From Bacteroidota bacterium (GTDB lineage Bacteria; Bacteroidota; Bacteroidia; Bacteroidales; B18-G4): a stretch of 33,451 nt of DNA. Below the pieces are notes generated by a model that was given only the letters and a program-made list of their open reading frames with translations, was not told the DNA's origin and ran no database searches. The position numbers were made by a program, and so were the translations under genes. The stretch covers positions 1-33,451 of the forward strand of contig JAHJRE010000165.1 of assembly GCA_018831055.1 (NCBI GenBank), given 5' to 3'. Within the stretch, counting starts at the first letter, position 1; every line of letters begins with the position of its first letter. Shown here piece by piece: positions 2,371 through 11,599 of the stretch.

Positions 2371-4206
2371 CTAATCCCTGAGACAGCGAACAGAAAACCC
2401 GTTTGCCTTATTGGTGAGATACCGGTGCACATCATTGCTGTCATAGATCAACTCCCGGTACCATGCGTCGTAGGTACCTAGCTCCGTAGAGGACCAAAAA
2501 TAGGCGATGTAATTCAGATTGTTGAAAGCATCATTATTGCTGCGGTAACCGCCAGGGAGCACTGAAAATCCATAATCGTCTGTACCGTTTCCTCCACTAT
2601 TCCAGTCACTTGTGGATGTTAATTTTTTTACAGGAATATTACCCATAAATTCAATCAGAATTGACCAATCTTTATCAGATGGCAAATGCCAACCCTCTGG
2701 ACAAGCCCTCATTGCTGCAGCCCAATCATATAATCTACCATACTTCTCACAATTTATTTTTTTATTCTCATAACACCAACTGTTGTACATTTTAAATTTG
2801 AGGTTTTCTGCCATCCAGCATTGATTCCCAATCTTAACTACCTTATATTGTTGTCCATCCCGTCGATCAGTCCCAATGCCATTGCAATCTTTGAAGTTTA
2901 CATTTGAGTAAGCAGGACTCATAATGGAACTACCTTTGGACTCTTTAAGTGTTTCATCTATCTCTGTTGTCTGGTTTTCTAATACTTCTACAATACTTTC
3001 TTCCTCTTGGTATCCAGCCAATTGAAGTTTAATGTAGTGTGATCCTATGATTATGTTATTGATTACCAGTGGGGATTTTCCTTTATCTACCCCATCAATA
3101 GTTACCAGGGCTTCCGGCGGTTTTGTCCTAACTATCAGGGTGCCAGTGATGGGTTTTAGATCAATAGTTAGTTGTTTGGCTTCCCCTGCCAGTATATTAA
3201 GGGTTTGTTTTTCTGAATAGTGCTTATCTTTTTTAACTTCAATAATGTGTGTTCCTTCAATAAGCCTTACTAAAAAGCTGCCTTTTCCAAGACTTTCGTT
3301 ATTGATGAAGATCTCTGCTTCAGAATCAGTATTGATGCTAATCAATGCAAAAGTTGGGTTCATAGTTATGGGTATGCGGGTTATTTCTCCTTTAGTAATA
3401 GAGAACTCCTGCTGGACTGTTTCATACATATCCATCCTTACAGATAGTGTGTGGTTGCCAGGTGACAAGGGCTCAATGGTTGCAGGAGTAGTCTGATCTT
3501 CCTCCCGGCCATCAATGGTTATGATAGCTCCACTTTCAGGAGTTGTTTCAACGTATAGGCTTCCAAAATCGGGAGCTAATGCTTTTTCTATGGTTGTTGT
3601 TTGATCAGGGAGGATGGTGAATTCTCCTGTCAATTCATGGTACATGTCTTTCTTTAGAGTGTAACGGTAAATGCCGGCTTCAAAAGGCTGCTGAAAAGGG
3701 GTGGTCTTGCCGGTAGCGTTGTTATTAATGAATACATCAGCACCGGTGGGGTTACTTTTAATGAGCACCATACCTAATTGAGCAACGGCTCCCATTCCCG
3801 TAACGTTTCGCACCAGAACCATTTGGTAAACCGAAGAAGCCTCAATGGGTAACGGGAAATTGTAATACTTCTTTGCAAAACCATCCGCAAAGATTTCCAA
3901 CCGCCTCTCACCGGGTGAGACGTAAACACGGTATTCTCCATTGCTGTACGTTGTATTACCGCAATTTCCCTGGCTTGATATAAAACTAGCTCCTTGTATG
4001 TCTGTACTGACCTTTATCAATGCACAGTATTCTCCATCAATGTCTTTCCTGGGATTGCGCTGTGTAGAAAGGTCGGAAGCGTCCTTTTTAAAATCTTTTA
4101 CTTCAAATTCATCGGCAAAACCCCAAAAGGGAAAGAAAGCCAGGAAAATAACGATAATCTTCTTCGTGCTCACTTGGTTTGTTGATTTGGGTGAAATACC
4201 CTTCAA
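2371..4206 (-). CDS. Secreted PEGA-repeat protein with C-terminal FISUMP domain
   Basis: The 611-residue protein is probably exported. A hydrophobic stretch (KKIIVIFLAFFPFWGFA) ends at about residue 31, followed by the DEFEVKDF start of the mature protein, which is shared with the PEGA gene at 4405-6426. Residues about 135-425 carry four PEGA-type beta repeats (for example NPTGADVFINN, TPESGAIITIDG, KPPEALVTIDG). Residues about 440-611 are a FISUMP (TIGR02145-type) domain with GNQCWMAENL, PEGWHLPSDKDW, GYGFS-like DDYGFSVLPGGYR and a terminal SVRCLRD. PEGA domains are generally surface modules; the ligand is unknown. The far start is a TTG at 4204-4206. A GTG at 4171-4173 (VSTKK) is an equally good start, and neither has a Shine-Dalgarno site. 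The last 60 codons are DGR-like (see separate entry). Confidence 0.9.
   Translation of the reverse strand: MKGISPKSTNQVSTKKIIVIFLAFFPFWGFADEFEVKDFKKDASDLSTQRNPRKDIDGEYCALIKVSTDIQGASFISSQGNCGNTTYSNGEYRVYVSPGERRLEIFADGFAKKYYNFPLPIEASSVYQMVLVRNVTGMGAVAQLGMVLIKSNPTGADVFINNNATGKTTPFQQPFEAGIYRYTLKKDMYHELTGEFTILPDQTTTIEKALAPDFGSLYVETTPESGAIITIDGREEDQTTPATIEPLSPGNHTLSVRMDMYETVQQEFSITKGEITRIPITMNPTFALISINTDSEAEIFINNESLGKGSFLVRLIEGTHIIEVKKDKHYSEKQTLNILAGEAKQLTIDLKPITGTLIVRTKPPEALVTIDGVDKGKSPLVINNIIIGSHYIKLQLAGYQEEESIVEVLENQTTEIDETLKESKGSSIMSPAYSNVNFKDCNGIGTDRRDGQQYKVVKIGNQCWMAENLKFKMYNSWCYENKKINCEKYGRLYDWAAAMRACPEGWHLPSDKDWSILIEFMGNIPVKKLTSTSDWNSGGNGTDDYGFSVLPGGYRSNNDAFNNLNYIAYFWSSTELGTYDAWYRELIYDSNDVHRYLTNKANGFSVRCLRD
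2374..2553 (-). other. DGR-like variable region A at the 3' end of the PEGA-FISUMP gene
   Basis: These 60 codons run from the GGYR motif to SVRCLRD. They align without gaps to the ends of the FISUMP genes at 6654 and 7737. The ends are anchored by GGCGGTTACCGC and by a terminal 21-mer that differs from the other two genes at only two bases. Interior codons are mostly of NNC or NNT type encoding N, D, Y, S, T, I. This is the layout of a DGR variable repeat, but no template repeat is present in the window. Confidence 0.45.
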
Positions 4207-4404: not shown

Positions 4405-6426
4405 TTAGAAAGTGTAAGCAATGCTAAAAACCGCTCCATCTTGCAGCGGCATGACCGCAACATTCATTTTCCGCTTCACCTTTCCCTGCTTTGATGCATA
4501 AATGATGGCTGGCACCAGACAGGCTGCACTAATGCCATACAGCACAGGATAGATAATGTCAAAGGTCTCCACCTGGTTGTGCAGTTTGGTTGCATCACCG
4601 GTGGCTGTCTTGTATTCATCGTATTTCTGGTTTGCAGAAAGATAAAAGTACGTTCCCGCTCCGGCACTGGCTGCAGCGGCTCCCAGCCATGCCCATTTAC
4701 GGATTTTGTGTTTACGGTATTCCTGTTGCAGGCTGCCCTGATAGGTCTGCATCTGGAAGGTGAGCTTCTGGTTTTCACCTTCCTTGACCGTCACATTTTT
4801 ACTGGCTTCCAGGAAGCCTTGTTTTTCAATCTTGATGTCATAATTGCCGATGATCAGCGGGATCACTGCCGGTGTATTTTCTTTGCGTTTGTTGCCGTTG
4901 ATAAAAATATTCGCTCCTTTGGTTTCCATGGGCTCGGAGAAAACACTCACGCTGCCCATGATCGGCTCCGGCTCCAGGGTGATCTCTTCATTGCTGCCAA
5001 TGGTGATGTAGATTTTTTTTTCAGCATCCCGGTGTTTGTCCTTAACAGCTTTAAAGTTGTAGCTCCCGGGCTTCAGGTTTGCCTGGTAACTGTCCTTTGC
5101 TATCTGCCTTTCATCCTGTAAAATCGTTGCTCCCTGGGCATTCACCTTCACCGTACCGAAGTTTTTGGTAAGCACGATCAATCGCTCAGTTTGCTGACCG
5201 TCTTTCACCTCAATCGTTTCGGTTTCATCTGTCCACAGTTCCCTGGTGAGCCGTAGTTTGTATATTCCGGATGGCCATTGATCTTTCAGAAAAGGGGTGC
5301 TGCCTACCATCTGTTCATCGATATACACGGCGGCTCCTTCCGGTTCCGAGGTGATGTTCAATTGTCCGAAGGCTGGGACCAGTTCCAGGTTGAAGGATCT
5401 GTCGTCTCCATCTTCTATTGTGAATGTCTCCGTTTTGTCGTGATACAAATTAAATTCCGTTCGCAGGGTATGCTCCCCGCTTTCGATTTCCCTGCGGGCA
5501 ACAGGGGTTTGGCCGATAAGTTTATTATCGAGATAAACATCTGCTCCGGAAGGCGTGGATATCACTTCAATATATCCGAACCTGGGTTTGAGGTTTATCA
5601 GAGGCAGTTCCTTGGTTTCACCTTCCTGGAGGGTAAAAGTGCCGGAATAGGAATAATACAGTTCTTTCATCAGCATAAGCTGGTATTCCCCGGCAATGAG
5701 CTGGTCGGTAAATGGGGTGAACCCGACCTTCTGTCCGTTCAGGAATACCTCTGCCTGGTCCGGGGCAGAATATATGCTCAGGATTCCCGGAAGGTTCAGC
5801 CTGGTGGTGGCTGCTCCTTGTTGTAGGTTGATATCCACAATCTGGTCTTTTTCTACCGATATGGACTTGGTAATATCCTCAAAACCATCTTTGGTAAACC
5901 GGAAGGTATATTCTCCGGGGGGTAGCTGGAAGTCTGCCACGCTCTTTCCCTCAACCTGCACCGGTGCAGCATTGTTTCTGGAAATAAATACTCCGGGCTC
6001 ATTCAGCCGGAAGGTAAGTGTGATAAGGTTCTCATCAATGGCTGCAACAGCACCTCCTTTACGTTTTACCTCCAGGATATATACCCTGCCGGATTCCACG
6101 CTTCCCGGTATCTGGAACCATTCCGGCTTGAAATCCCTATGCATGAGCTTGATGGCCTTTTCTCCCGGTGAGACATACAGCCAGTATTCTCCTGGTGATT
6201 TTTGAACCACATCGGCTGCAATGCCACCGTTGGCATCAAAATCCATTCCCTGAATGTCTGTTAATACCTTGATGAGAGCGCAGGTTTTGCCGTCAATGTC
6301 CTTTTGGGGATTACGGGTAGCGGCCAGATCGCCATGGGATGCGTAGAATTTGATGATCTCGAATTCGTCGGCGAAGATTATTTTGCTTGAGAGTAGGAAT
6401 AAGAAGATTATGATGGGTTTATGCAT
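4405..6426 (-). CDS. Membrane-anchored PEGA-repeat envelope protein
   Basis: The protein has 673 residues. Residues 1-19 are a signal peptide (IIIFLFLLSSKIIFA), and the mature protein starts DEFEIIKF, like the neighbour at 2371. At least five PEGA-like repeats follow. They are recognisable by 'S.P.gA.Vyldg..iG.TP' patterns: APDQAEVFLNGQKVGFTPF, TPSGADVYLDNKLIGQTP, EPEGAAVYIDEQMVGSTPF and EPMETKGANIFINGNKRKEN. Near the C terminus lie two predicted membrane helices (WAWLGAAAASAGAGTYFYL and VLYGISAACLVPAIIYA), with a basic KQGKVKRK after the second. The protein is therefore probably anchored by its C-terminal end with the PEGA repeats in the periplasm or on the surface. PEGA modules occur in surface proteins of bacteria, but no catalytic motif is visible. 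It is transcribed in line with the PEGA-FISUMP gene, 198 bp apart. Confidence 0.9.
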   Translation of the reverse strand: MHKPIIIFLFLLSSKIIFADEFEIIKFYASHGDLAATRNPQKDIDGKTCALIKVLTDIQGMDFDANGGIAADVVQKSPGEYWLYVSPGEKAIKLMHRDFKPEWFQIPGSVESGRVYILEVKRKGGAVAAIDENLITLTFRLNEPGVFISRNNAAPVQVEGKSVADFQLPPGEYTFRFTKDGFEDITKSISVEKDQIVDINLQQGAATTRLNLPGILSIYSAPDQAEVFLNGQKVGFTPFTDQLIAGEYQLMLMKELYYSYSGTFTLQEGETKELPLINLKPRFGYIEVISTPSGADVYLDNKLIGQTPVARREIESGEHTLRTEFNLYHDKTETFTIEDGDDRSFNLELVPAFGQLNITSEPEGAAVYIDEQMVGSTPFLKDQWPSGIYKLRLTRELWTDETETIEVKDGQQTERLIVLTKNFGTVKVNAQGATILQDERQIAKDSYQANLKPGSYNFKAVKDKHRDAEKKIYITIGSNEEITLEPEPIMGSVSVFSEPMETKGANIFINGNKRKENTPAVIPLIIGNYDIKIEKQGFLEASKNVTVKEGENQKLTFQMQTYQGSLQQEYRKHKIRKWAWLGAAAASAGAGTYFYLSANQKYDEYKTATGDATKLHNQVETFDIIYPVLYGISAACLVPAIIYASKQGKVKRKMNVAVMPLQDGAVFSIAYTF

Positions 6427-6430
6427 GGTT

Positions 6431-6454
6431 ATATGGTTATATGGTTATATGGTT
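6431..6454. repeat. Octamer tandem repeat ATATGGTT x3 upstream of the PEGA gene
   Basis: Three exact copies of ATATGGTT sit at 6431-6454, with a degenerate fourth (GCATGGTT) at 6423-6430 that overlaps the start codon. The tract lies directly in the 5' untranslated region of the gene starting at 6426. The same octamer recurs before the gene starting at 32002. Confidence 0.85.
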
Positions 6455-6597
6455 GGGTGCTTTGATTTAAGGTTTCTGCTTTAGATATTATTTTTTTAGT
6501 TTTTAGATCTATTTTTTAATCTTTAATCTGTCAGCAAATTAATGCTTTCCTTGTAAACCGGTAATTCATTATAGAGTACCAAATTCTAAAAATTTTG

Positions 6598-6614
6598 ACC
6601 CCGCTTCGTGGGGT
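6598..6614. other. GC-rich hairpin downstream of a FISUMP gene
   Basis: ACCCC-GCTTCGT-GGGGT is a 5-bp GC stem; a further C-G pair is possible inside. It lies 40 bp beyond the stop codon at 6654-6656. It takes the same relative position as the hairpins at 2302-2318 and 7688-7709 after the other two FISUMP genes with similar 3' ends. Confidence 0.55.
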
Positions 6615-6653
6615 ATTGTTCAAATAAATCAAATTGTCAAAGTTTTAAATAGT

Positions 6654-7634
6654 CTAAAAATCCCGGAGACAACGAACAGACCTACCGTAGTCCTTATAGT
6701 AGTAGCTGCGGCTGACATCATCGAAGTCGTAGTACAATATCCGGCCCCATGCGTAGCTCGCATCGTACTCCGAAGAGGACCCAAAGTAGGCGCTGCTACC
6801 CATATAGTAGAAACTACCATAAATACTGCGGTAACCGCCAGGCAATGTGGAAAAGCCACTTGAATTTGTTGCTCCGGTGTTGGGTCTATTCCAATGTGTA
6901 TATCCGGCTTCCTTCATTGCTCCTCCGGCTATGCCATCGCCACTAAGATAATCTACCAGTATTGTCCATTCTGCATCACTGGGTACATGCCATCCGTCCG
7001 GACAAATGCCCTGTACACCGCTTGGAACAGCATTGCTGCTGGAAGCTCCGTTCATTAATGTGGCCCAGTCGTATAGCCGTCCGTAAATATCGCAGTAGGA
7101 GGAATTATTATCATAGCACCACGAGTTGCCGGTTTGATAATTCAGGTTCCCGGCCATCCAGCATTGGGTGCCTATTTGTACTGCTTTGTATGATTTACCA
7201 TTTCTTGGGTCTTTAAATGGGCTTGGGCATGCAAAATTAATGGATATTTCTGCAGGCGCAGAATGTCTTGTGCCTGCTGTGGCATAGATACGATATTGAT
7301 AAGTGATATCGGAACTGGGAATGATATCATTGTCTGTTGTTTCAAAGGTACCTGCAGGAATGATCCTATAGTTTAACTGCCATTCTGAGTTTCCAGCCTT
7401 ACGGTCGATAATGAAATTTTCAACATTAGATGCATCGCACTTCCACTCCAGCTTTTTTTCGGTAATGCTAATATCGGATATTTGCAGGTCATAAGGTGCC
7501 CAGGCAGAAGCCAGAACATGCTCATCATAAGGATTATCATACTCCCGTTTTTGGCAGGAATTAATCAAGACCGAAGAAAACAGAATAAAAAGCGCAATAA
7601 TTAGCTTAACAGAAATACCGTGTGATGATTTCAT
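6654..7634 (-). CDS. FISUMP-domain lipoprotein (one FN3 domain)
   Basis: The 326-residue protein has a lipoprotein signal peptide with lipobox LINSC (Cys27). It is followed by QKREYDNPYDE, a motif shared by the three lipoproteins of this cluster. Residues about 45-133 form a fibronectin type III-like domain ending in TYQYRIYATAG. Residues about 141-325 are a FISUMP domain: IGTQCWMAGNL, NSWCYDNN, YGRLYDWATLM, ICPDGWHVPSDAEW, GFSTLPGGYR and SVRCLRD. The FISUMP domain is thought to have a C-type-lectin-like fold related to DUF1566 and FGE-type domains, so a binding role at the cell surface is likely; the ligand is unknown. Residues 266-325 are unusually rich in Tyr, Ser and Asp. It lies 103 bp from the start of the neighbour at 7737 and is probably a paralogue made by duplication. 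Confidence 0.9.
   Translation of the reverse strand: MKSSHGISVKLIIALFILFSSVLINSCQKREYDNPYDEHVLASAWAPYDLQISDISITEKKLEWKCDASNVENFIIDRKAGNSEWQLNYRIIPAGTFETTDNDIIPSSDITYQYRIYATAGTRHSAPAEISINFACPSPFKDPRNGKSYKAVQIGTQCWMAGNLNYQTGNSWCYDNNSSYCDIYGRLYDWATLMNGASSSNAVPSGVQGICPDGWHVPSDAEWTILVDYLSGDGIAGGAMKEAGYTHWNRPNTGATNSSGFSTLPGGYRSIYGSFYYMGSSAYFGSSSEYDASYAWGRILYYDFDDVSRSYYYKDYGRSVRCLRDF
6660..6839 (-). other. DGR-like variable region B at the 3' end of a FISUMP lipoprotein
   Basis: This is the clearest of the three variable 3' ends. It starts at GGYR and ends at SVRCLRD; the interior is a run of TAC, AGC, GAC, GAT and TAT codons (for example SRSYYYKDYG). Such codons are what adenine-specific mutagenesis of AAC/AAT codons yields. 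The last 21 nt are identical to those of the gene at 7737, as is the 12-mer GCATGGGGCCGG. Against that gene I counted 20, 19 and 19 differences at codon positions 1, 2 and 3. Of 20 NNY/NNY codon pairs that change the amino acid, 16 keep the same third base. Confidence 0.5.
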
Positions 7635-7687
7635 ATTTACAAACTTTCAACTTTAAGAACTTTATAAACTTTTAACCCCTGGTTTTC

Positions 7688-7709
7688 TCCTCGCTGTCGC
7701 TTCAGAGGA
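7688..7709. other. Imperfect hairpin downstream of a FISUMP gene
   Basis: TCCT pairs with AGGA and CTG with CAG, with a two-base bulge and a 6-base loop. It lies 28 bp beyond the stop codon at 7737. It is weaker than the hairpins at 2302 and 6598 but in the same relative position. Confidence 0.35.
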
Positions 7710-7736
7710 TGAAATTAAAAAAATAATCAAATAGTC

Positions 7737-9296
7737 CTAATCCCGGAGACAACGAACAGAAAGTCCGGCGACCTTATTGTAGTCGTTGCGATACACACCG
7801 TTGTTGTCGAAGGTTAACCCCCGGCCCCATGCGTTAAAAGCGTCGCTTCCCGCAGAAGACCAAAAGTAGTCCTCGGCTCCTATACTGTAAAAATTCCAAT
7901 TGCTCCCGCGGTAACCGCCCGGCAATGCGGAAAAGCCATAGTCATTTGTACCGTTTCCGCCACTGTTCCATCCAGTTGAGGATTTTAATTTTTTGCCTGC
8001 ATCTGAACCACGGCATCCATCATTATTCCATACAGGATCACCAACATAATACTGGCTATCTACAGATCCCTCAAGTATTTTCCATTCCTCATCACTGGGA
8101 ATATGCCAATCCTCAGGACAAATACCCTTTACTCCGCTGGGAACTGCATTGCTGCTAGATGATCCATTCATTAATGCACCCCAGTTGTATAATCTGCCAT
8201 ATGTATCGCAGTTGGATGCATTGTTATCATAGCACCAGGAGTTGCTTGTCTGGTAATTCAGGTTTTCGGCCATCCAGCATTGAGTACCTATAAGGGTTGT
8301 TGAATATAATTTGTTATCCCTTAGGTCGGTATAGTTATGCCCGCAAATAAATATTTGGATATTATTTTCAGTGAATGTTGAATTATAAATATCAAAGAAA
8401 GCATAAATCCGGTAATATACATTGTCTCCATTATTAAAGTCACCACTATCCGTAAAGAGTGTAACATTTTCATTTACTGTCCCATATGCCGCCTCCCAGC
8501 TTGAATTGCCTAATTTGCGGTCGATTTTAAAACCGTCTTCACCCTGGCTGTGATCTGACCAGGTAAGCGATATTTCTTGCCAATTGACCTGAGTTAAATT
8601 TAAATTGTCCGGAGCCGGTATTTGGGTATTTATTTCGGATTGTGAAAACCCCGAATGAGCTGTATCAACATAAGCGTAAACTTTGTAATAGATCGTGTTA
8701 TTCAAGGGGAAATTATTATCTGTAAAGCCTGTCACATTTTCATTTATCGTTGCATAGGCTGTCTCCCAGGCTAAGTTTCCTACTTTACGGTCTATTTTAA
8801 AGCCGTCTTCACCGGTAGTACCATCCTGCCATGTCAGATGTATTTCAGTTAAAGAAATCAATTCTACATGCAAGTTCGTAATAGGTGATATACTGAAAGT
8901 TTTTGATATTTCTGCGGCATCAGAATGCTTCATACCGGCAAAAGCATAAATTCGGTATTGGTAAGTTATATCGGGATCCGGAATTATATCGTTGTCGGTT
9001 GTTTCAAAGGTTCCGACGGGTATTATTTTATATTTCAACTGCCATAGGTCATTTCCGACTTTGCGATCAAAGATAAAACCATCTATATGAGTTTCATTAC
9101 AATTCCATGTCAGCATTTTTTCAGAAAGGCTTATGTCAATTATCTGCAAATCGTACGGTGCCCAATCTGAGGGTGAAGCATTTTCATCGTAAGGATTTTC
9201 CCACTCCCGTTTTTGGCAGGAATAGATTATGGCCAAAGAAAACAGAATGAAAAGCGCAATAGCGACCTGAATTGAAATACGGTATGTTGATTTCAT
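7737..9296 (-). CDS. FISUMP-domain lipoprotein with three FN3 domains
   Basis: The start chosen is ATG at 9294-9296. It gives MKSTYRIS and a lipoprotein signal peptide with IIYSC (Cys27), exactly parallel to the paralogue at 6654. An ATG 60 bp upstream would add 20 residues that spoil the signal peptide. The 519-residue protein has the QKREWENPYDE motif after the lipid-anchor Cys. Three FN3-like domains follow, with repeated 'DGFKIDRKVGN..W' and 'YYKVYAYVD'-type strands. A C-terminal FISUMP domain contains IGTQCWMAENL, ICPEDWHIPSDEEW, DYGFSALPGGYR and SVRCLRD. The extra FN3 copies compared with its neighbours suggest internal duplication. The likely place is the outer membrane surface, with the FISUMP tip exposed; the partner is unknown. 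The last 60 codons are the DGR-like region C. Confidence 0.9.
   Translation of the reverse strand: MKSTYRISIQVAIALFILFSLAIIYSCQKREWENPYDENASPSDWAPYDLQIIDISLSEKMLTWNCNETHIDGFIFDRKVGNDLWQLKYKIIPVGTFETTDNDIIPDPDITYQYRIYAFAGMKHSDAAEISKTFSISPITNLHVELISLTEIHLTWQDGTTGEDGFKIDRKVGNLAWETAYATINENVTGFTDNNFPLNNTIYYKVYAYVDTAHSGFSQSEINTQIPAPDNLNLTQVNWQEISLTWSDHSQGEDGFKIDRKLGNSSWEAAYGTVNENVTLFTDSGDFNNGDNVYYRIYAFFDIYNSTFTENNIQIFICGHNYTDLRDNKLYSTTLIGTQCWMAENLNYQTSNSWCYDNNASNCDTYGRLYNWGALMNGSSSSNAVPSGVKGICPEDWHIPSDEEWKILEGSVDSQYYVGDPVWNNDGCRGSDAGKKLKSSTGWNSGGNGTNDYGFSALPGGYRGSNWNFYSIGAEDYFWSSAGSDAFNAWGRGLTFDNNGVYRNDYNKVAGLSVRCLRD
7740..7919 (-). other. DGR-like variable region C at the 3' end of a FISUMP lipoprotein
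   Basis: These 60 codons correspond without gaps to regions A and B. They begin at GGCGGTTACCGC and end with 21 nt identical to region B. The interior is rich in NNC/NNT codons (for example YRNDYNK, then GTC-GCC where an AAC pair could be ancestral). Third-base changes also exist, so B and C need not come from one template. Confidence 0.45.
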
Positions 9297-9342
9297 GACT
9301 TCCTGATTTGGGGTTGTTGCATTTCCAAGGTTTTTAAGATAA

Positions 9343-10320
9343 ACAACATCTTGCAAATTACAAAAAAAACAGGTCTGGAGAAAGGAAAAAATTACTTATG
9401 GATTTACTTATCCATCGTATGCGCTTTGCTATTATTCGTATCTAAAAGATGAATATTTGTATAGATGGTGTGTTAATATGATGTGGAGATACTCGTTGAT
9501 TTTCGCTATTTTTTTTCTAAAAGATACTAAAAACGGAAAAACGTATGTTTTGAAAGTGTATTTTTATAATTACCCGGATAGAAAAAAGGATGTATGGATT
9601 GTGATTAGTACTATGGATTTAAAGACAAAATTATTTTGGATGGTGTTAAAAGGCCGGTTTTCTATATTTATAACCGATCTCCAATTGATAAAATCCACAT
9701 AAGCCAGGGTTATTGTATTGTGTTGTAGGTAACTATTATTTTCCGGATAGTGGTTACGACGGACGACAATATTTATGGGAAACCGACCAACATTAGCTAT
9801 ACCTGAGAAAAGTCATTTACCCGGACTTTTTTGAAAATGAGATCTACTTGTGGATAGAGAATGGCATCCTTATTTTTAAGTATGTTAAGGATAATTCATT
9901 GGCATTTAAACCAAAACGTCCCAGAGAATATCATCACTGGACTGAATAAGAAAATGCATGTTTGTTGATTACGAGAAGTTACCGCAAATGGAAATGGGGG
10001 CAAGTTATTCTCGAACGACAATGGATTAAGGGTTCATTTGTAAGTTTTTGGAATGCACGAGGGTTATATATCTATGAAAATGATCAAGGCTTTGAATCGT
10101 TTCTTAGAGTATATGATCCGGAAATATGGCTGGAATGTATGCAACGCTGGGTGGATATCCTGTATGATGAAAAGACCAACCTGGCAAAGATTTTCCAGGA
10201 TCTGTTGCTGAATTATCATGAAGAGTTTCCTAAACTTGGAATCAATATTTATAATTTTCTCGAAGAAATCCAATTATTCTCCAGCTCAACATGCTTTGGG
10301 AGTGGACAGGGGAATTTATC
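9343..10320 (+). pseudogene. Frameshifted remnant of an unidentified gene
   Basis: This stretch between two FISUMP genes reads as one decayed plus-strand gene of about 320 codons. Frame 1 is open from 9343 to 9702 (includes KNGKTYVLKVYFYNYPDR). Reading then shifts near 9600-9650 to another frame (GVKRPVFYIYNRSPIDKIHI) and shifts again near 9720-9728 (GNYYFPDSGYDGRQYLW). From there one frame continues to about 10320 through in-frame stops TAG 9794-9796 and TAA 9947-9949 (FENEIYLWIENGILIFKYV; later FWNARGLYIYENDQGF, EIWLECMQRWVDILYDE and LLNYHEEFPKLGINIYNFL). The composition is that of a real, Trp- and Tyr-rich protein, not random sequence. I do not recognise the family. It has no visible partner and runs opposite to its neighbours. 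Confidence 0.6.
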
Positions 10321-10354
10321 AATAAATGTTTTATTGATTCCATTATCATTTTTT

Positions 10355-11371
10355 TTAATCTTTAAGGCAACGGGCAGAAAGGCCATAACCTTTACCTAAA
10401 TAGTTACTCCTGATCTCATCCCGGTCATTCTGAAAATCCCGATACCAGGCTTCTGCACTATTGCTTTCTGTTGATGACCAGAATAAACCATTAAATCCAA
10501 TATAACCTCCGTAGTATCCATTGTCATTGCGATAGCCACCGGGTAAAGCTGAAAAACCGTATTCATTTGTTCCGTTTCCCAAGTAATTCCAACCCGATTC
10601 AGCTTTAAGTTTTTTCCCTGCATCAAAACCACGGAAACCGGTTTGGTCCCATTCGGGATCACCGAGGCTATAATGGCTGTCTACATATCCTTCCAGAATT
10701 TTCCATTCAGCATGACTGGGAACATGCCATCCTGGAGGGCAAATACCTTGTACCCCGCTGGGAACACTATTGCTGCTGCTAGTACCACTCATCAGTGTTT
10801 GCCAGTCATAAAGCCGGCCAAGAGAATCACAATAGATTGCATTATTTTCATAGCACCAGGAGTTTCCTGCAACAGAATTTAAATTTTCAGCCATCCAGCA
10901 TTGTTCACCAATCAGGGTTGTTTTATAACTTAATCCATTCCTGTGATCTGTAAATGAAACTCCGCAAATAAATATAATTACGTTATTCTCTGCATAGTCC
11001 GAAAGGCCACCCCCATAGAACGCGGCTACCCGGTAATGATATATGTTTCCAGGAATGAAGTTGCCACTGTCGATGAAACTCATAAAATTTTTTCCTGTTT
11101 CCGCGTATCCTTCATTCCATGCACTGTCTCCTTCTTTTTTGTCTATTTTGAATCCATCTATCTGTGTCACATCACAATGCCAGGTAAGAAGAATTTTGTT
11201 TACACCTGTTTCCATTACATATAAGTCATAGGGTCCCCAATCGGAAAGATTATTGTTGCTGTCGTATGGATTATCCCAATCTTTCTTACCGCAAGCATGG
11301 TGTAATATAATACTTGTAGAAATAATGAAAATGATTATTACCGGAGAAAACAAACGGTAGGCAATTTTCAT
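10355..11371 (-). CDS. FISUMP-domain lipoprotein, divergent paralogue
   Basis: The chosen ATG at 11369-11371 gives MKIAYRLF and a hydrophobic signal (VIIIFIISTSIIL) ending at HHAC, a weak lipobox. It is followed by GKKDWDNPYDS, which matches the post-Cys motif of the two lipoprotein neighbours. An upstream ATG at 11407 would add 12 residues. The protein (338 residues) has one FN3-like domain (LLTWHCDVTQIDGFKIDKKE to YHYRVAAFYG). A C-terminal FISUMP domain follows: IGEQCWMAENL, SWCYENN, YGRLYDWQTLM, ICPPGWHVPSHAEW, EYGFSALPGGYR and SARCLKD. Its 3' end differs from those of the other three genes in synonymous bases and by one inserted residue, so it is an older relative and not part of the recently similar set. 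It is divergent from the KAP gene at 11665. Confidence 0.9.
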   Translation of the reverse strand: MKIAYRLFSPVIIIFIISTSIILHHACGKKDWDNPYDSNNNLSDWGPYDLYVMETGVNKILLTWHCDVTQIDGFKIDKKEGDSAWNEGYAETGKNFMSFIDSGNFIPGNIYHYRVAAFYGGGLSDYAENNVIIFICGVSFTDHRNGLSYKTTLIGEQCWMAENLNSVAGNSWCYENNAIYCDSLGRLYDWQTLMSGTSSSNSVPSGVQGICPPGWHVPSHAEWKILEGYVDSHYSLGDPEWDQTGFRGFDAGKKLKAESGWNYLGNGTNEYGFSALPGGYRNDNGYYGGYIGFNGLFWSSTESNSAEAWYRDFQNDRDEIRSNYLGKGYGLSARCLKD

Positions 11372-11599
11372 ACTTACTAATATCAGTTCTGATTTTTTTA
11401 GATTCATATTGGATGGTCAATTAACTAACTAAAGGTATGAAAAAAATCGGGTTGGGTAAAAGAAGAATGCCTGAAATTCATTAAATATCAGCTATGCATT
11501 ATTATTGGGTATTTGTATGTATTAGTAGGTTCTTCTGATAGAAAGGAGTATTAATTAACGTAAGTTATAGACCATCAGCATTTTTTCAGTCTGCAAGTA

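Follow-up and report, generated by a model that had tools for sequence, protein, structure and literature searches.

The window, the whole 33,451-nucleotide stretch of DNA analysed here, belongs to a MAG assembly (G000) of 342 contigs that is 96% complete. It carries several FISUMP genes, all of those considered here on the minus strand, with a hairpin and a short coding remnant downstream of one of them (Table 1). The product of this gene, at 6654-7634, starts with a lipoprotein-like N-terminus, where a lipobox, LINSC, was seen by inspection only, continues with an FN3-like domain (FN3 matches cover residues 39-136), and ends with the FISUMP domain, which matches Pfam at E=5e-34 and passes the curated PF09603 cut-off (118.6 bits vs 33.9). 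The assembly contains 14 FISUMP matches. Four of these genes form a tight group by their C-termini, namely, the 6654, 7737, and 2371 genes of the window and a caspase(C14)-FISUMP gene on another contig (C42:6913-8244), and the 10355 gene falls outside it. A group II intron with its maturase (L032, G000:C42, ~4905-6912) starts immediately behind the caspase(C14)-FISUMP stop codon, at the 3′ edge of the variable region (VR) of that gene.

Table 1 Features at and around the 6654-7634 gene in the window
Feature	Coordinates	Strand	Remarks
PEGA-repeat FISUMP protein	2371..4206	-	VR at 2374-2553; template family in common with the 6654 gene
bAvd stub	6526..6585	-	NLVLYNELPVYKESINLLTD and a stop codon; N-terminal part of the DGR accessory protein, remainder of the cassette absent
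Hairpin	6598..6612	-	CCCCACGAAGCGGGG, then T-run; lies between the VR and the stub of bAvd, an arrangement seen in complete FISUMP DGRs
FISUMP (PF09603) target gene	6654..7634	-	326 aa; C-terminal FISUMP domain holds the VR
Variable region	6660..6858	-	60 codons at 6660-6839 plus ~20 bp of common sequence upstream
Paralogous FISUMP target gene	7737..9356	-	FN3 repeats; VR at 7740-7919
FISUMP gene without VR signature	10355..11407	-	Internal negative control

A 3′ segment of 180-200 bp is common to the four genes of the tight group, three in the window and one on C42. In the 6654 gene, BLAST extends it about 20 bp farther upstream than 6660-6839, to about 6858, and it ends at codon 60 (GAT). 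The first-pass annotation had taken the last 60 codons for a DGR variable region on the basis of base counts, all of which we were able to reproduce. On the minus strand, 6660-6839 and 7740-7919 differ at exactly 20 first, 19 second, and 19 third codon positions, the third base is kept in 16 of the 20 NNY/NNY pairs that change the amino acid, and the final 21 nt as well as GCATGGGGCCGG are identical. The described richness in TAC, AGC, GAC, and TAT amounts to 20 of the 60 codons. The third-base signal is stronger against the other two paralogues than against 7740-7919, with 22/17/9 differences at positions 1/2/3 and 19 of 22 third bases kept for C42:6919, and 26/19/13 differences and 21 of 22 third bases kept for 2374-2553. 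This signal is above chance, because signature-free FISUMP genes of the same genome (C3:6545 and C17:5937) show a third-position excess and third bases are without conservation in the 3′ end of the 10355-11407 gene, where 44/62 differ.

For 15 pairs, codon-position divergence was then compared between the VR and the portion of its FISUMP domain that lies upstream. Between the 6654 and C42 genes, 9 of 62 third positions differ in the VR and 49 of 86 upstream (p = 9e-8), and the corresponding counts for fourfold sites are 1/15 and 12/15, the upstream third positions and fourfold sites being near saturation. Positions 1 and 2 of this pair are equally diverged in both parts (39/124 in the VR, 54/172 upstream). 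A similar result was obtained with the 2371 gene (third positions, 14/62 in the VR and 51/86 upstream; p = 7e-6), and both p values hold after correction for the 15 pairs. Third-position homogenisation is weaker in the pairs with the 7737 gene (p = 0.06-0.33) and absent in those with the 10355 gene, where the third position is not reduced in the 3′ end. Ordinary duplication and selection give the same synonymous divergence inside and outside such a segment, and ordinary gene conversion homogenises every position, whereas homogenised third positions together with diverged positions 1 and 2 are the outcome expected of template copying with targeted mutation. The VR therefore bears the footprint of template copying and targeted mutation.

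FISUMP DGRs of other genomes provide templates for comparison. In a Bacteroidales UBA6244 MAG (G150; L129/L268), a FISUMP VR is found with bAvd, a template, and an RT containing GLPIGNLTSQ. A genome of the same order as that of the window (G054; L119) encodes a FISUMP DGR with a template and an RT ORF that does not have the GLPIGNLTSQ segment; its VR mismatches all fall at template adenines with at most one exception, and non-adenine differences are at most 1/112. In the VR of this locus (minus-strand ORF 6193-7605 of G054:C101), A-to-G makes up 43 of the 44 adenine changes, and the spectrum of L163 is mixed. L163 (Bacteroidales RS_12_1, 5170-10412) holds a template repeat in a small ORF near three FISUMP VRs, two of them in one double-FISUMP protein, and no DGR RT was found in a search of its genome. 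Template-like copies with DGR-type RTs are also present in L302 (G170), L304 (G162), and L305 (G151). Among the FISUMP loci from public contigs that were scanned, 2 of 91 have a template nearby, and most FISUMP genes are therefore not located beside one.

The L119, L129, and L163 templates have nearly identical translations, with Asn at matching places, and at 23 codons two or more of these templates have AAY. Of these 23 codons, 22 are NNY in the 6654 VR, compared with 53% for its own upstream codons, and VRs with a template alongside have NNY at 23/23. Differences among the four VRs of the window genome concentrate on the adenines of the L119 template (odds ratio 3.6-6.6, p 1e-4 to 3e-8), whereas the odds ratios are 1.4-2.1 when one member of the pair is a FISUMP gene of this genome that has no VR. 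With templates of homologous DGRs as a proxy, variation is thus found at template adenines on a conserved backbone, as in DGR targets. Codon composition by itself was rejected as proof of a DGR origin, as NNY richness is in part explained by a preference for Tyr, Asn, Ser, and Asp; NNY reaches 0.9 in several FISUMP VRs from genomes with no detected DGR RT.

The FISUMP domain of the 6654 gene product was modelled by AlphaFold with a pLDDT of 97. VIA matches of the model are mostly C-type-lectin-like and include InvE (top, Z 9.3), Lcl (Z 8.7), and Mtd of the BPP-1 DGR (Z 7.0). Foldseek against the PDB gave weak matches (best E 0.3), and phmmer against the PDB gave none. The C-type-lectin-like fold predicted for this domain rests on VIA, and AlphaFold and VIA together place the VR within it, a property of DGR targets. 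The BPP-1 Mtd/Brt DGR (AY029185) likewise has a C-terminal VR in a C-type-lectin fold; unlike the 6654 locus, it serves a phage tail protein and has a complete TR and RT. The 6654 gene probably encodes a surface binding protein. Its VR has 12 Tyr and 5 Ser at the 23 template codons, with 20 single-adenine changes, 2 double changes, and 0 unmutated codons, and the L163 VR at 9658-9837 similarly has 12 Tyr and 20 single-adenine changes. When two adenines mutate independently, single changes make up at most 50%. The 20 single-adenine changes exceed this maximum, so selection probably shaped the 6660-6839 VR; Tyr/Ser-rich faces were probably selected for in both VRs.

Such enrichment of Tyr and Ser at variable codons (17/23) would also be expected if the FISUMP binding faces had diversified with no DGR involved, via duplication and gene conversion, with positive selection favouring surfaces rich in Tyr and Ser, and NNY-rich FISUMP C-termini are indeed common where no DGR is detected. 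However, this origin would have to explain why synonymous homogenisation is confined to the VR alongside highly diverged positions 1 and 2, why the VR differences match the adenine positions of DGR templates, and why a bAvd stub sits in the right place downstream. We regard it as very improbable.

The stub NLVLYNELPVYKESINLLTD, of about 18 codons including YNELPVYK, resembles the bAvd N-terminus of L129, MAQYNELPVYKATYDLL, in tblastn and HMM comparisons, and it is the only occurrence of the bAvd motif in the six frames of the window. Its frame starts 74 bases past the last VR codon, and in G150 bAvd starts at +73. All 5 base differences from G150 within YNELPVYK are synonymous. The flank of about 120 bases that runs from the VR end through the hairpin and T-run into bAvd aligns with G150 at a score of 40.5, compared with 26.5 for the best of 1000 dinucleotide shuffles, and the bAvd part alone scores 20.0, a value matched by 1 of 2000 shuffles. 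The hairpin and T-run may be no more than a terminator. When all six frames of the contigs of its own genome were searched without bias, the stub had E=0.46 and an unrelated segment scored better; when the search was limited to sequence downstream of FISUMP genes, E was 0.13. The stub is short and, taken alone, weak as a candidate bAvd remnant, and the weight lies on its position, strand, and frame together with the alignment of the DNA flank. The next gene (4405-6426) is about 100 bases away, so the locus lacks most of bAvd as well as the template and the RT. Truncated or frameshifted bAvd N-termini are also found downstream of FISUMP genes in L191, L111 (G054), L159, and, weakly, L149. In G006, which belongs to the family of the window genome, an N-terminal bAvd fragment of 39 residues lies +68 downstream of a FISUMP gene and the remainder is absent.

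Beyond the locus, a PF00078 search of the assembly returned three RTs, all group II intron maturases; Brt and the FISUMP-DGR RT profile gave nothing further, and no DGR-clade RT was thus detected in the 96% complete assembly. The RT beside the C42 paralogue was ruled out as a DGR RT by its matches to a group II intron maturase (NCBIfam TIGR04416) and to Rfam intron domains. A single group II intron RT is split into two overlapping halves at the ends of another contig, C36 (L041), which may be a circular element or else a collapsed repeat. The assembly has no match to a full bAvd gene, the N-terminal stub at the expected position apart. A template was not found in it by similarity, by the VR 3′-end pattern, with the G054 template, or with the composite VR pattern, which retrieves exactly the four VRs. 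The candidate at C2:16360 was ruled out as a chance match antisense to a gene that, from its own sequence, we take to be yidC-like. On viral contigs, the exact pattern gave no template, and 13 distant relatives came up when these contigs were scanned with the FISUMP alignment. The first-pass annotation had stated that its reading would be refuted if the complete genome lacked a DGR RT or template; neither was found in the assembly, which goes against that reading, although the result is not final for a MAG of 342 contigs and 96% completeness.

An intact DGR could act in trans, with its RT and template in the ~4% that this fragmented MAG lacks, on an element left out of the bin, or in other cells of the population, and the VRs would then still be rewritten. 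Another bacterium is reported to have targets in trans, degenerate loci, and strain variants whose RT is intact (PMC10907252), and L163 has a template and three FISUMP VRs in a genome where the RT was not found. Nevertheless, the VRs of the window genome are not fresh copies of one template, as any two of them differ at 9-25 of the 62 third positions, against at most 1/112 non-adenine differences in G054. At non-A positions of the G054 template, the four VRs differ pairwise by 17-26%; in L119, in L129, and for the L163 VR closest to its template, the VR and the adjacent template differ at about 0-4% of such positions. Moreover, the FISUMP-DGR RT profile found no DGR RT in any of the nine genomes of the family, one of whose members, G006, has only the bAvd fragment described above. 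We consider an intact DGR in trans unlikely, although less so than an origin with no DGR at all.

In our judgement, the 6654-7634 gene is probably a DGR target that ends in an orphan VR; its cassette is truncated, and the machinery was not found in the assembly. The DGR derivation put forward by the first-pass annotation is thus upheld by the footprint, the template register, the fold, and the stub. Its further proposal, that the DGR is active or recent and that its RT and template lie elsewhere in the genome, finds no support: the RTs of the assembly are all group II intron maturases, no template was found there, and the four VRs diverge at non-A positions. A DGR with an RT, bAvd, and an AAY-rich template would have copied one shared template into several FISUMP genes of the lineage, randomising the template adenines within a C-type-lectin-like domain that presumably binds ligands. 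The cassette behind the 6654 target would later have been truncated past ~18 bAvd codons, or the target and flank alone may have been duplicated. We infer this order of events, and a loss of the machinery in preference to an assembly gap. The four orphan VRs would now act as fixed alleles of binding proteins, because the assembled genome has these four VRs and no detected machinery.

DGRs with Fib_succ_major targets were described for 9 target proteins of human microbiomes (Ye 2014, PMC4159848). They share with the 6654 locus the target domain at the C-terminus, a lipoprotein example, and adenine-directed variation; unlike in these DGRs, bAvd at the 6654 locus is reduced to a stub, and searches of the assembly recovered neither RT nor template. 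A literature search for FISUMP by that name in connection with DGRs returned no report, such targets being reported as Fib_succ_major. The FISUMP-bAvd-TR-RT cassette of G150/L129 has the same target domain, VR register, hairpin and T-run, bAvd position, and VR 3′ sequence (TCTGTYCGTTG), but it is complete and its RT retains GLPIGNLTSQ. Thiohalocapsa PB-PSB1 has degenerate and trans-acting DGR loci, with strain variants in which the RT is intact (PMC10907252). As in the window genome, there are several VR targets in one genome and the machinery is missing at some loci, and CLec sensors and caspase-like peptidases occur near related loci; however, one complete locus is kept per class in Thiohalocapsa, whereas none was found in the window assembly. 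Both Fib_succ_major targets and degenerate DGR loci have been described before, and the 6654 locus adds a new, partly decayed example.

From a broader perspective, a lost DGR can be recognised by its footprints alone, namely, a homogenised VR backbone, NNY codons in template register, and an accessory-gene stub. Catalogues of DGR proteins that require an RT nearby would overlook such orphan targets, and these loci give a concrete set for asking what becomes of hypervariable receptors once the mutator is gone. The most interesting aspect is the recurrence of bAvd stubs behind FISUMP targets elsewhere. We can only speculate, and with some doubt, that FISUMP DGRs repeatedly shed their machinery in Bacteroidota while retaining the target together with the flank as far as the beginning of bAvd, which may have come about by deletion or by spread as a target-plus-flank unit. 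If so, these genomes would hold a standing library of pre-diversified, fixed lectin-like binders, in lipoprotein, PEGA, and caspase fusions. Finally, one genome that also holds L124 (G152) contains several copies of FISUMP-type DGR RTs on contigs C116, C249, C37, and C215 (L298-L301), some with stops or fragmentary.
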